64,000 nt of DNA from Pedobacter sp. SYP-B3415. Lineage in GTDB: Bacteria > Bacteroidota > Bacteroidia > Sphingobacteriales > Sphingobacteriaceae. Within the stretch, counting starts at the first letter, position 1, and every line of letters begins with the position of its first letter. The position numbers and the translations under genes are program-made. Below, piece by piece: positions 26,236 to 31,675 of this stretch. The stretch spans positions 1 to 64,000 of the forward strand of contig NZ_RXNQ01000032.1 of assembly GCF_004138205.1 (NCBI RefSeq). Direction: 5' to 3'. The notes beneath the pieces are model-generated. The model made no database searches, was not told the origin of the DNA, and worked only from the letters and a program-made list of their open reading frames with translations.

Positions 26236-27351
26236 TTACTGTATAAGCGCATAACTTGTACTTCGCCCGCCTGCATCTTCCCTGATCAGAATGCCCCGGT
26301 TTATCAGGTCCTGAATATCCCTGCCAGCAGTATCCTGCGAGCATTTTGTTATTTTGGCCCATTTGGATGATGTTAGTTTCCCTTCAAAATGTCCGGTGAG
26401 CCGGTTCAGCATAAGTCTTTGCCTTTCATTGATACCCAGTGCAGCGGCTGATTCGAACAATTTTGCTTTTCTTATAACCGACCCGAGCAATTCCTCTGTT
26501 GCCGCAATTGCCCGTTCAAGACATTCCAGGAACCAGATCAGCCAGTTTGTAATATCTAAAGAGCCCTTTTGTTTCTCTTCAAGCATATCGTAATACCTGT
26601 TTCTTTCCAGTCTGATCTGGGCAGACATGCTGTAAAAGCGATCGGCACTTTCGTCGGCACGTGCAAGCAGGAGGTCTGTCAGTGCCCTCGCGATCCGGCC
26701 ATTGCCGTCATCGAAAGGGTGAATGGTGACAAACCATAAATGCGCAATGCCCGCCTTGATAACCGGATCCGGTTCATCTGAAGTGTTGAACCAGTCAATG
26801 AAGGCAGCCATTTCCGCGTCCAGCAACTCAGAATCAGGTGCCTGATAATGGACACGCTCCTTGCCCATTGCGCCTGAAACAACTTGCATAGGGTCATCTT
26901 TGGTGTTATCCCGCCAGGCTCCTACAACTATTTTATGCATCCCGCTGCGTGCAGAGGGAAATAAGCAGGAATGCCATCCATATAAACGCTCGGCCGACAA
27001 AGGTTCCGTATATCCGCGTGTTGCGTCTAACATCATCTCTACCACACCGTCTACATGCCGGTCAGAGGGAACAAGTCCGCCAATGTCCAGTCCAAGCCTC
27101 CGCGCAATCGAAGAACGCACTTGTGACGCATTCAGAATTTCTCCCTCAATTTCGCTTGATTTCACTACATCCTGAGTAAGAGTCTGCAGGCTGGCTTCGG
27201 CTATCAGATTAAATCCGAGCTTATGCATTTTACCCAGTATTTTTCCCTGTTTGAATCGCGTCGAGGCCAAGGCTTTATATACTGTCCTTTCATCCCATTT
27301 AAATGCCGGCCAATCTGGAAGCTGATGAATATATATTGGTATTCTCCGCAT
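26236..27351 (-). CDS. Fic family protein with N-terminal DUF4172 and C-terminal winged helix
   Basis: Fic proteins usually transfer AMP to hydroxyl groups of target proteins. This 371-residue protein has a DUF4172-like N-terminus (IHQLPDWPAFKWD), an inhibitory-helix motif SxxxEG (Ser65, Glu69, Gly70 in SSEIEG), the active-site motif HPFDDGNGRIAR (His211) and a C-terminal winged-helix region (about 300-371: LTSSKWAKITKCSQDTAGRDI). So the catalytic site is intact and probably self-inhibited through the N-terminal helix, and the protein may bind DNA. The start codon lies inside the first unit of a repeat array (27340-27514), so the first codons encode MRRI from the repeat itself. Self-regulation is the simplest reading. 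Confidence 0.9.
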   Translation of the reverse strand: MRRIPIYIHQLPDWPAFKWDERTVYKALASTRFKQGKILGKMHKLGFNLIAEASLQTLTQDVVKSSEIEGEILNASQVRSSIARRLGLDIGGLVPSDRHVDGVVEMMLDATRGYTEPLSAERLYGWHSCLFPSARSGMHKIVVGAWRDNTKDDPMQVVSGAMGKERVHYQAPDSELLDAEMAAFIDWFNTSDEPDPVIKAGIAHLWFVTIHPFDDGNGRIARALTDLLLARADESADRFYSMSAQIRLERNRYYDMLEEKQKGSLDITNWLIWFLECLERAIAATEELLGSVIRKAKLFESAAALGINERQRLMLNRLTGHFEGKLTSSKWAKITKCSQDTAGRDIQDLINRGILIREDAGGRSTSYALIQ

Positions 27352-27514
27352 ATCTTGCGGTGAATATAGCTGTTATTCTCCGCAAATTAAAGCGCATTTC
27401 TACGGTTTAATTAAAAAACCGCCCATCTGTAATTTTATTCTCCGCATCTTGTGCGGCGAATAGGCAGGGTAATCTCCGCATAAAATGCGGAGATTACCGG
27501 GTATAATCTCCGCG
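27340..27514. repeat. Five-unit palindromic repeat array in the fic promoter
   Basis: The unit is TATTCTCCGCA, five bases, then TGCGGNGAATA. Copies start at 27340 (dyad overlapping the fic ATG), 27374 (left half clear, right half decayed), 27436 (full dyad), 27470 (full perfect dyad, TAATCTCCGCA / TGCGGAGATTA) and 27504 (left half). Starts are 34 bp apart within the groups 27340-27374 and 27436-27470-27504, with a 62-bp step between groups. The three full dyads all have five-base spacers. This looks like a multi-site operator or iteron-type binding array. The rest of the 27352-27548 gap holds only an A/T-rich stretch and a hairpin. Confidence 0.8.
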
Positions 27515-28967: not shown

Positions 28968-29849
28968 TTAGCGGGGCCGGCCTGCTTTTAAGGCCTTTTC
29001 AGCACGTTTTATTGCGATCTTCTCACGCCAGGCTCCATAGCGGCCTTTAAAAGCCATTTTCAGCACACTGTCCAGTCCGCCTTTTAATGCCAGGCTTAAT
29101 ACGCTTTCGGCTTTCCGTTTCCAGGAAGCATCCCATGCCCGTAAGGTAAGCGAGAACGAGCCATCGAGATATTTCATCCAGTGCCACATGCCTGTAGGCA
29201 TGAATAATGTGTCTCCATGTTCGAGCACCACTTCATAACCTTCTACGCCTTCCAGCGCGGGGAATTTGCTGGTATCTGGCTTGGCAACATCGAAATCTTC
29301 CAGTGCATAGGTGGTATTCGGGAGTTTGTAAAGCCGCTCCTTCCATTTGTTGTCAAACAGGATAACATGTTTGCGACCGCAAAAATGCGTATGAAACAGA
29401 TGCGGCAGATCGATATCGTAATGCAAAAACGTAACAGATTCAGAGCCGCCAAAGAACATAGCAGGCATGCTTTCCAGAAAACCACCCATAAGTGAACGCG
29501 GCAGCTTGATGTCTTTCAACAGTTCCGGCCGGTGTTTAAACAGGTTGAAAAAGAAGATACGAAGCTCGGTCGGCTCCCGCCGGATCAGATCGAGGTAGTC
29601 TCTGAATTTCATTTCCGAAGCCGATTGGTTGATTGGCTTTGCGGGGTCTGCTTTTGAGTTGTCGTAAAGGGGAACGGTCAGCTCGCCCGCCAGATCTTTC
29701 AAAAAGTCGGTATTCCACTTATCGCGTGCAGCCCATGTTTTGGTAAGCCCCTTAATAACAAGTGGTTTGCGCGGCAGAAGATACTTTCTTCTGAAATCGT
29801 CTGCGCTGATCTGTTCGACCACATCAACGGCAGCTAGTTTGAAACCCAT
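28968..29849 (-). CDS. Cupin/JmjC-like (cupin_8) protein, copy 1
   Basis: A 293-residue protein of the cupin_8/JmjC-like group, whose members are often Fe(II)- and 2-oxoglutarate-dependent hydroxylases. The double-stranded beta-helix has the metal triad His143-x-Asp145 (LHYDIDLPH) and His223 (MPTGMWHWMKY); Lys160 (GRKHVILFD) is a good 2-oxoglutarate contact. The family start DDFRRKYLLPRKPLVIKG is present, and the C-terminus is basic and helical. It aligns end to end without gaps with the second copy at 30794-31675. It follows the DUF3050 gene by 94 bases. Its substrate is unknown. Confidence 0.85.
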   Translation of the reverse strand: MGFKLAAVDVVEQISADDFRRKYLLPRKPLVIKGLTKTWAARDKWNTDFLKDLAGELTVPLYDNSKADPAKPINQSASEMKFRDYLDLIRREPTELRIFFFNLFKHRPELLKDIKLPRSLMGGFLESMPAMFFGGSESVTFLHYDIDLPHLFHTHFCGRKHVILFDNKWKERLYKLPNTTYALEDFDVAKPDTSKFPALEGVEGYEVVLEHGDTLFMPTGMWHWMKYLDGSFSLTLRAWDASWKRKAESVLSLALKGGLDSVLKMAFKGRYGAWREKIAIKRAEKALKAGRPR

Positions 29850-30793: not shown

Positions 30794-31675
30794 TTACCGG
30801 GGTAAGTGTCTTTCAAGCGCTTTATTTGCTCTTTTTATGGCCAGCTGTTCTTTCCAGCTCATGTATTTCTCGCGGAAATTACCTTTCATAAAATCATCAA
30901 ATTTACGCTGAATGGTCAGGTTGTAAAGGCTTTTTGCTTTGACTGCCCAGCTCTTGTCCCAGGCACGAAGGCTGATCGAGAAAGATCCGTCCAGGTACTT
31001 CATCCAGTGCCAGTATCCGGTAGGCATAAACAACGTATCGCCATGTTCTAAAAAGCCTTCCAGGCCCTGCACACCCTGCAGGGCCGGGAATTTTTCAAAG
31101 TCAGGCCGCTCTACATCGTAATCTTCGAGCGCATAGGTAGCAAAGGGAATCTGATAAAGCCGCTCTTTCCACTTGTAATCGAACAGAATAATGTGTTTTC
31201 TGCCGTTAAAATGGGTATGGAAGATATGAGCCAGATCAATGTCGTAGTGAAGGAAAGTAACTGAACCCCGGCCCCCGAAAAACATATTCGGATAACTGTC
31301 AAGAAAACCGCCCATCAGTTCCTTCGGTGCGCGGTAATCTTTCAGCAGGTCAGGTGCAAATTTGATCGGGTCAAACAGGAAAATACGCAGATCAGTCGGG
31401 GTTTCTTTTATCAGGTCAATATAGTCGCCAAATTTCATCTCCGCAGCCGATGCATTGATTGGCTTTGAAGGGTCAGCCTTTGAGCTGTCGTACAGCGGAA
31501 CCGTGGTGTCGCCGACCACCTCTTTCATGTAGTCCATTGTCCACTTTTCATAAGCCGGCCAGTTTTTAGCCATTTTTTTGATGATAAGTGGCTTTCTGGG
31601 ATTGAGGTATCTCTGCTCAAACTCAGATCTGGAAATACTGTCAACAATGTCGATTGGAGATAAATCGAATTTCAT
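30794..31675 (-). CDS. Cupin/JmjC-like (cupin_8) protein, copy 2
   Basis: A 293-residue paralogue of the gene at 28968-29849, same length and same positions for the triad His143, Asp145 and His223, with Lys160 also kept. Regions around the active site (FLHYDIDL, FHTHF, HGDTLFMPTG, YWHWMKYLDGSFS) are nearly identical between copies, while the N- and C-terminal thirds differ more, as expected for diverged substrate contacts. It is the first gene of the trio and has the best promoter candidate (31702-31709). Confidence 0.85.
   Translation of the reverse strand: MKFDLSPIDIVDSISRSEFEQRYLNPRKPLIIKKMAKNWPAYEKWTMDYMKEVVGDTTVPLYDSSKADPSKPINASAAEMKFGDYIDLIKETPTDLRIFLFDPIKFAPDLLKDYRAPKELMGGFLDSYPNMFFGGRGSVTFLHYDIDLAHIFHTHFNGRKHIILFDYKWKERLYQIPFATYALEDYDVERPDFEKFPALQGVQGLEGFLEHGDTLFMPTGYWHWMKYLDGSFSISLRAWDKSWAVKAKSLYNLTIQRKFDDFMKGNFREKYMSWKEQLAIKRANKALERHLPR

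Follow-up and report, generated by a model that had tools for sequence, protein, structure and literature searches.

We analysed a window of 64,000 nt of Pedobacter sp. SYP-B3415 (contig NZ_RXNQ01000032.1, positions 1 to 64,000), in which a fic gene, coding for a DUF4172-Fic protein, starts inside an array of inverted repeats. With a probability of about 0.88, we consider the array to be the operator of Fic itself, and the DUF4172-Fic enzymes would be autorepressors, each reading its own operator. The conservation of the array, its near-restriction to fic, its geometry and the covariation of its bases with the Fic protein are seen directly in the sequences compared.

Structure of the array

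The array consists of eight 12-bp half-sites, TGCGGAGAATAA (R) alternating with its reverse complement (F), in a group of three and a group of five (Table 1), with steps of 17 bp except for one of 62 bp. The initial annotation had described five palindromic units with a 34-bp period, and all of them are where it placed them (dyads 27340-27366, 27436-27462 and 27470-27496; half-sites at 27374 and 27504); the 34-bp spacing is true inside each group, and the two groups are offset by 96 bp. Its claim that the first dyad holds the fic ATG was verified as well, ATG CGG AGA ATA being read as MRRI. Since this is the only in-frame ATG, GTG or TTG from the preceding stop codon to the DUF4172 domain, the start codon is inside the dyad. 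The signal resides in the arrangement and not in the single 12-mer; the loose 12-mer alone, with < = 2 mismatches, had 24 matches in the whole window vs 19.7 expected, which is not significant, and Tandem Repeats Finder reported no repeat.

In CbFic2-like class II Fic proteins of the DUF4172 type, the Fic motif has the form HxFx(D/E)GNGRxxR and the inhibitory motif, N-terminal to it, the form (S/T)xxxE(G/N). Both are intact in the window Fic (HPFDDGNGRIAR and the N-terminal SSEIEG), in which the DUF4172 domain (residues 7-88; PF13776, 115.3 bits) precedes the Fic domain (residues 117-229; PF02661, 62.5 bits), both above the cut-off. The C-terminal winged helix is borne out by the AlphaFold prediction (mean predicted local distance difference test 87.7), with helices at residues 309-319, 328-335 and 339-351 and strands at 355-357 and 367-369.

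Occurrence at related fic genes and elsewhere in the genomes

As a close set we considered the best 80 of 539 relatives, 62-71% identical to the window Fic. A half-site match had > = 9 bits, and an operator was defined as > = 2 matches between -200 and +30 of fic. Precisely, 79 of the 80 close fic genes had > = 2 half-sites upstream of or across the start, hence the dyads are kept in the orthologues that the initial annotation had proposed to compare. By phylum, as given in the record titles, this was true for 52/53 Bacteroidota, 20/20 Pseudomonadota and 2/2 Planctomycetota loci and for one locus each in five other phyla, several of these phylum labels depending on single metagenome bins. Half-site density in the region from -200 to +30 was 19.7/kb in 81 loci (the window and the 80 relatives) and 8.2/kb in 168 further loci, the latter being the fairer test because the half-site matrix was trained on the same region of the close set; all other bins holding sequence had 0.02-0.17/kb. 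The presence of a window-type operator in the 168 further loci followed identity to the window Fic: 1/60 below 40%, 3/22 at 40-50%, 16/17 at 50-55%, 37/45 at 55-60% and 22/24 at 60-70%.

These sets derive from 257 loci (the window and L007-L264 minus the duplicates L087 and L089), of which 249 were kept after removing four with no Fic match (L230, L231, L261, L262) and four with no open reading frame (ORF) of 300 aa. At least four loci of the later set (L142, L213, L235, L264) are from genomes already present in the 80-relative set.

Among neighbouring ORFs of > = 110 aa, the 12 largest recurring clusters (6-17 loci each) were alphaproteobacterial among the loci listed. Since neighbours did not recur outside alphaproteobacteria in these clusters, the operator appears to belong to fic and to travel with it, not with the genomic place.

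The exact outward dyad TCTCCGCANNNNNTGCGGNGA (0 mismatches) was found solely as the three array dyads in the 4.47-Mb genome of the window, and at exactly 2 mismatches it had 8 off-array places vs 1 for the reversed control pattern. The genome-wide search that the initial annotation had also proposed thus revealed no dispersed repeat, with the exact dyad in the fic array only and few off-array matches; together with the near-background half-site density away from the fic start, these counts rule such a repeat out.

For the cross-genome searches we considered the window genome and 16 genomes picked from the 80-relative set. With < = 1 mismatch, the outward dyad was found in the 16 genomes at 29 places, 21 of them at a known fic and 8 elsewhere, vs 4 for the control; three genomes (G398, G400, G402) had no such place at fic. 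The inward dyad (TGCGGNGAWTA-N7-TAWTCNCCGCA), searched with up to 3 mismatches in the 17 genomes, gave 46 places vs 2 for the reversed control. With < = 2 mismatches, 24 of 25 places were just upstream of a DUF4172-fic, the exception being G406:C62; with 3 mismatches, 5 of 21 were at a fic and 16 elsewhere, and the search had no match at the fic of G408. Two of the 3-mismatch dyads in Olivibacter sitiensis (G404, L020) mark a second, previously unnoticed fic with its array (G404:C48:27087-27419, L265). A few further genomic targets besides fic may exist.

Two of the stray places, both in G407 (C4:150-178 and C10:109962-109990; L267, L268), are two nearly identical copies of a hairpin close to the end of a 524-aa ORF; no link of this pair to fic was seen.

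Spacing geometry

The geometry of window-type operators was analysed in 128 nonredundant arrays. Of 209 adjacent R-to-F pairs, 165 were spaced by 17 bp and 21 by 16 bp; for the 196 adjacent F-to-R pairs these counts were 149 and 19, and adjacent R-R pairs with no F between them were 19-22 bp apart in 48 of 65 cases; the most frequent layouts were RFRRFR (28) and RFRFR (27). At 53 nonredundant loci whose Fic has a residue other than D at position 340 (non-D340), R-to-F was 17 bp (74) or 16 bp (10) and F-to-R was 27-28 bp (31) or 17 bp (18). Because R-to-F is constant at 16-17 bp in both sets and F-to-R is either 17 or 27-28 bp, the geometry favours the inward dyad (R-5-F, A/T tails facing) over the outward one (F-5-R) as the seat of a dimer. 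Outward spacing appears to be controlled too, since F-to-R distances within the same array were 16/16 in 5 arrays, 17/17 in 44 and mixed in 1. Same-orientation spacings group at 33-34, 44-45 and 52-56 bp; these steps of roughly one helical turn suggest that adjacent dimers would lie on one face of the DNA. Fixed spacing fits the cooperative binding proposed in the initial annotation; the "spreading" binding that was its other suggestion is unsupported, as half-sites number 2 to 6 in the layouts listed and 8 in the window.

Half-sites of distant relatives

Window-type sites were absent from 78 of the 82 relatives below 50% identity. Direct repeats of any sequence in these 78 loci peaked at 44 bp (23 loci vs 2.8 expected from five first-order shuffles), with further peaks at 34 bp (18 vs 1.4) and 45 bp (12 vs 1.6). 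The half-site types listed for distant relatives included TGAGCCGAATAA-type sites with recognition helices starting S-K-A-T-A, TGAGGCGAATAA, in some cases with S-R-A-T-A, and TGAG(C/T)(G/T)ATA. An unanchored motif finder, run per locus, was weak (145/249 loci above the shuffle 95th percentile, 44 above the shuffle maximum), hence we used a TG-anchored dyad search, which sets bases 1-2 by construction and lets in chance instances (e.g. L036, L219). It found a dyad unit in 234 of 249 loci vs about 28 expected from shuffles and 36/249 in the in-gene control; from high to low identity the counts were 104/105, 54/62, 20/22 and 56/60, with 76/82 for the relatives under 50% identity.

The window genome itself has a second DUF4172-Fic, a 385-aa ORF (L088, duplicated as L089; G000:C1:45802-46047), whose half-sites TGAGCCGGTTAA, TTAATTGGCTCA and TGAGCCGATTAA reach its start and are unlike the window type.

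Covariation of half-site bases with the recognition helix

Of the 234 loci with a dyad unit, 227 had > = 3 sites and gave 142 nonredundant pairs (75% identity filter, residues 7-299), for which we calculated the mutual information between half-site bases and 301-323 protein columns; 217 rows, left after removal of identical rows, were used for residue and base counts and for the independent-pair test. Among 320 columns, residue 340 came first for base 3, and residue 339 ranked first for base 6 in all loci (320 columns), in the D340 loci only (301) and in the non-D340 loci (323), and for base 5 it was first in the D340 set and third overall. For bases 7 and 8, the top rank over all loci went to the wing column G362. 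The AlphaFold prediction, made with no DNA in the input, has the recognition helix starting at residue 339.

D340 occurred with C at base 3 in 147/147 rows, other residues in 2/70. Among the D340 rows, H339 went with T at base 5 in 7/7 (others 3/140), K/R339 with A at base 4 or 5 in 7/8 (others 1/139) and Q339 with A at base 6 in 60/72 (others 27/75), and among the non-D340 rows K339 went with C at base 5 in 20/22 (others 16/48). As common descent confounds the column ranks, we also compared identity-matched locus pairs (12,204 pairs, 50-90% identity): where residue 339 differed, bases 5-6 differed more by 0.36, which was rank 1 of 305 columns, the next being 0.23. This covariation supports the model of the initial annotation, in which Fic would read its own promoter. 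The top rank of the wing column for bases 7 and 8 was set aside, having no independent-pair support (1.7:1.4).

If these pairings hold, Q339H should shift the preference from TGCGGAGA to TGCGTAGA half-sites, D340A should relax the demand for C at base 3, and the second Fic (TGAGCCGATTAA) should not cross-react with the window array.

Promoter and start codon

Among the F sites of the 128 arrays, 63 of the 101 promoter-proximal ones had TATA at their 5′ edge, vs 3 of the 103 distal ones; the window has it within a promoter-like box fused to the proximal F half-site. Proximal and distal sites were compared because our first promoter-box test (55/67 vs 264/1780 random positions) was discarded, the half-site itself fulfilling the pattern. 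An in-frame start overlaps a half-site in 64/89 D340 and 39/53 other nonredundant loci, and every candidate start does so in 40/89 and 23/52, these being raw overlap counts. A bound protein would mask the promoter together with the start point and, at many loci, also the start codon. It probably represses its own promoter, since TATA is fused to the operator and such a case, CccR, has been published (see below).

Proposed mechanism and alternatives

We propose that Fic dimers would grip the half-sites via their C-terminal winged helices, with residues 339 and 340 at the start of the recognition helix reading the TGCGGA core and the wing perhaps lying along the A/T tail. Two or more dimers would sit side by side on one helix face, over the promoter box and over both the presumed transcription start and the start codon; abundant enzyme would thereby shut its own gene (negative autoregulation by direct occlusion), and DUF4172-Fic members would keep their own pair of helix and operator across different genomes and surroundings. 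Physical binding, the direction of the effect (repression) and the dimer stoichiometry are what we infer here.

Several results weigh against this proposal. Stray inward sites away from fic amount to 17 (1 with 2 mismatches, 16 with 3) vs 2 for the control, and outward strays at < = 1 mismatch to 8 vs 4. Locus L024 (Pedobacter sp. Leaf250, 65% identical), the one exception among the 80 close relatives, has no detectable half-site in its 129 upstream bases (L024 1-130), possibly through promoter replacement or a contig-edge effect, and 15 of 249 loci had no dyad unit in the TG-anchored search. Residue 339 falls to rank 152 for base 4 overall and, among non-D340 loci, to rank 20 for base 5, and the column ranks as such are confounded by kinship among the sequences. 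Independent pairs are few: D340 changes 3 times on the tree, giving 2 pairs (1 concordant, 1 without difference), and the other pairings gave 3:0 for H339/T5, 3:0 with 1 tie for K/R339/A4-5, about 4:0 with 2 ties for non-D340 K339/C5 and about 1.4:0.2 with 5 ties for Q339/A6, which is weak; none of these four is significant alone, and those for H339, K/R339 and K339 agree in direction. The wing result given above counts here too. Finally, AlphaFold modelled the window Fic as a monomer.

Among the alternatives, Fic could read the array and activate or fine-tune its own promoter, possibly through the upstream group (-95 to -163 in the window); we consider this improbable, given that the proximal unit overlies the TATA box, the presumed start and the start codon, and that CccR represses (PMC9755527). 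It is very unlikely that another regulator binds the array and controls fic, with the Fic winged helix serving elsewhere. Winged-helix proteins do often regulate neighbours, but the array goes with fic in the three phyla having more than one locus, the recurring neighbours in the listed clusters are confined to alphaproteobacteria, bases 5-6 track Fic residue 339 above all other of the 305 columns, and the other fic of this genome comes with a half-site of another sequence. That the dyads are RNA hairpins of an attenuator or leader, and not a DNA operator, has only a slight chance of being true: inverted repeats upstream of a start codon could fold, but direct R-R repeats with no F between them are frequent (see Spacing geometry), the TATA at the proximal site places most of the array probably upstream of the transcript, and a hairpin would not be expected to covary with a recognition helix. 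Hardly any credit is due to the repeats being ends or integration sites of a mobile element bearing fic, for, while fic distribution is patchy and relatives are on plasmids, matching repeats have no excess downstream (0.09-0.17/kb) and TATA is at proximal and not at distal sites.

Known Fic proteins

Autorepression by one Fic protein is already known. CccR of Yersinia pseudotuberculosis, a class II Fic protein with a C-terminal helix-turn-helix (HTH), represses its own promoter via inverted repeats (AGATAATCAT-N26-ATGATAATCT) near the -35 and -10 elements; its dimer interface is required, and its authors describe the regulatory and toxic activities as independent (PMC9755527). Like CccR, the window system has a Fic enzyme, a C-terminal HTH (predicted here) and inverted repeats over its own (here predicted) promoter. 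Unlike the window, with 12-bp half-sites every 17 bp, CccR has one half-site pair of different sequence with a 26-bp spacer, and it is a type VI secretion system effector (PMC9755527); the inner ends TGA of its half-sites resemble the non-D340 types, by inspection alone.

The solved structure nearest to the window Fic is CbFic2 (PDB 8cil; Z 42.0, root-mean-square deviation (rmsd) 2.3, 344 residues aligned, 44% identity; 334 bits), which shares DUF4172, the Fic domain and the winged HTH. CbFic2 binds DNA with nM affinity, and DNA of > = 20 bp induces dimerisation and favours deAMPylation; that work used random DNA, the authors leaving the specific binding sequence to future studies (PMC10628234). 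This 20-bp threshold comes close to the distance separating the GCGGAGA cores in an inward dyad of the window, which is likewise about 20 bp. By fold, SoFic (PDB 3eqx, 3zcn, 3zec) resembles the window Fic in domain order (Z 26.1-26.4, rmsd 8.7-9.0, 335-337 residues aligned, 17% identity), and its DNA binding is not demonstrated according to PMC10628234.

The Creative Commons-licensed PubMed Central literature, searched partly through the best-listed matches, yielded no description of a family-wide Fic operator array with helical-turn spacing and a recognition code, and among the matches listed there for the string GCGGAGAATA no title was on Fic.

Features of the window and distribution of the family

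Table 1. Positions of the features of the fic locus in the window. Numbers after R and F are in gene orientation (A of ATG = 0); the first three half-sites form one group and the other five the second.
Feature	Position	Strand	Remarks
Half-site R(+1), TGCGGAGAATAC	27339..27350	-	supplies the TG of the fic ATG
Half-site F(-16), TGCGGTGAATAT on + strand	27356..27367	+	
Half-site R(-33), TGCGGAGAATAA	27373..27384	-	
Half-site R(-95), TGCGGAGAATAA	27435..27446	-	
Half-site F(-112), TGCGGCGAATAG	27452..27463	+	
Half-site R(-129), TGCGGAGATTAC	27469..27480	-	
Half-site F(-146), TGCGGAGATTAC	27486..27497	+	
Half-site R(-163), CGCGGAGATTAT	27503..27514	-	
Promoter-like box TATATT	27363..27368	-	fused to proximal F half-site; putative transcription start few bases before ATG
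fic, 371 aa	26236..27351	-	DUF4172, Fic domain and predicted C-terminal winged helix; motifs intact
Predicted recognition helix, residues 339-351 (QDTAGRDIQDLIN)	26299..26337	-	AlphaFold; 339/340 covary with half-site bases 5/6 and 3
Predicted wing, residues 355-369	26245..26289	-	AlphaFold; loop with GGR 361-363

The window Fic (26239-27351) matched the SoFic model of PADLOC, a tool with no cut-off, with 150.4 bits over residues 9-368, and the second Fic matched it with 175 bits; annotation pipelines of the PADLOC type may class both genes as defence genes. The window also codes, on the minus strand, for two similar 293-aa proteins (28968-29849 and 30794-31675) with a 265-aa ORF in between.

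Members of the DUF4172-Fic family were found, with the centre genomes counted and phyla assigned from the record titles of the centre loci, in 48/395 Bacteroidota, 86/398 Pseudomonadota, 30/199 Acidobacteriota and 23/199 Planctomycetota genomes and in 1/299 Bacillota genomes, this one being the centre genome itself, a metagenome bin. By tblastn, 569 of 72,556 plasmid records matched Fic, 37 of them at > = 60% identity. At locus L033 (38-1279, 1486-2847 and 4832-5881), fic stands after repC, with a RepB/ParB-like gene before and an ArdC-like anti-restriction gene downstream. ORFs similar to this repABC-type context are present in up to 16 other alphaproteobacterial loci, mostly of Rhodobacteraceae, the domains having been verified in L033.

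Significance

The comparison supplies a half-site, a geometry and a partial residue-to-base code for the DUF4172-Fic group, and it suggests that autorepression by Fic is widespread across this family. The binding sequence named as a future task by the CbFic2 authors (PMC10628234) now has a candidate, so that cognate DNA can replace random DNA in tests of binding, of specificity swaps and of how DNA is linked to enzyme mode; the second fic of the window genome, with its different half-sites, is a natural test of orthogonality.

The initial annotation had suggested that AMPylation may be coupled to repression; by analogy with CbFic2, it is plausible that operator occupancy is coupled to AMPylation and deAMPylation. 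A more tentative idea, which we think doubtful at present, is that the array acts as an allosteric control, in which promoter-bound dimers would be kept deAMPylating and only excess or released protein would AMPylate the target. If this were true, DUF4172-Fic genes would be self-contained one-gene circuits, one helix setting both gene dosage and enzyme mode, and private operators would keep several Fic circuits apart in the same cell.
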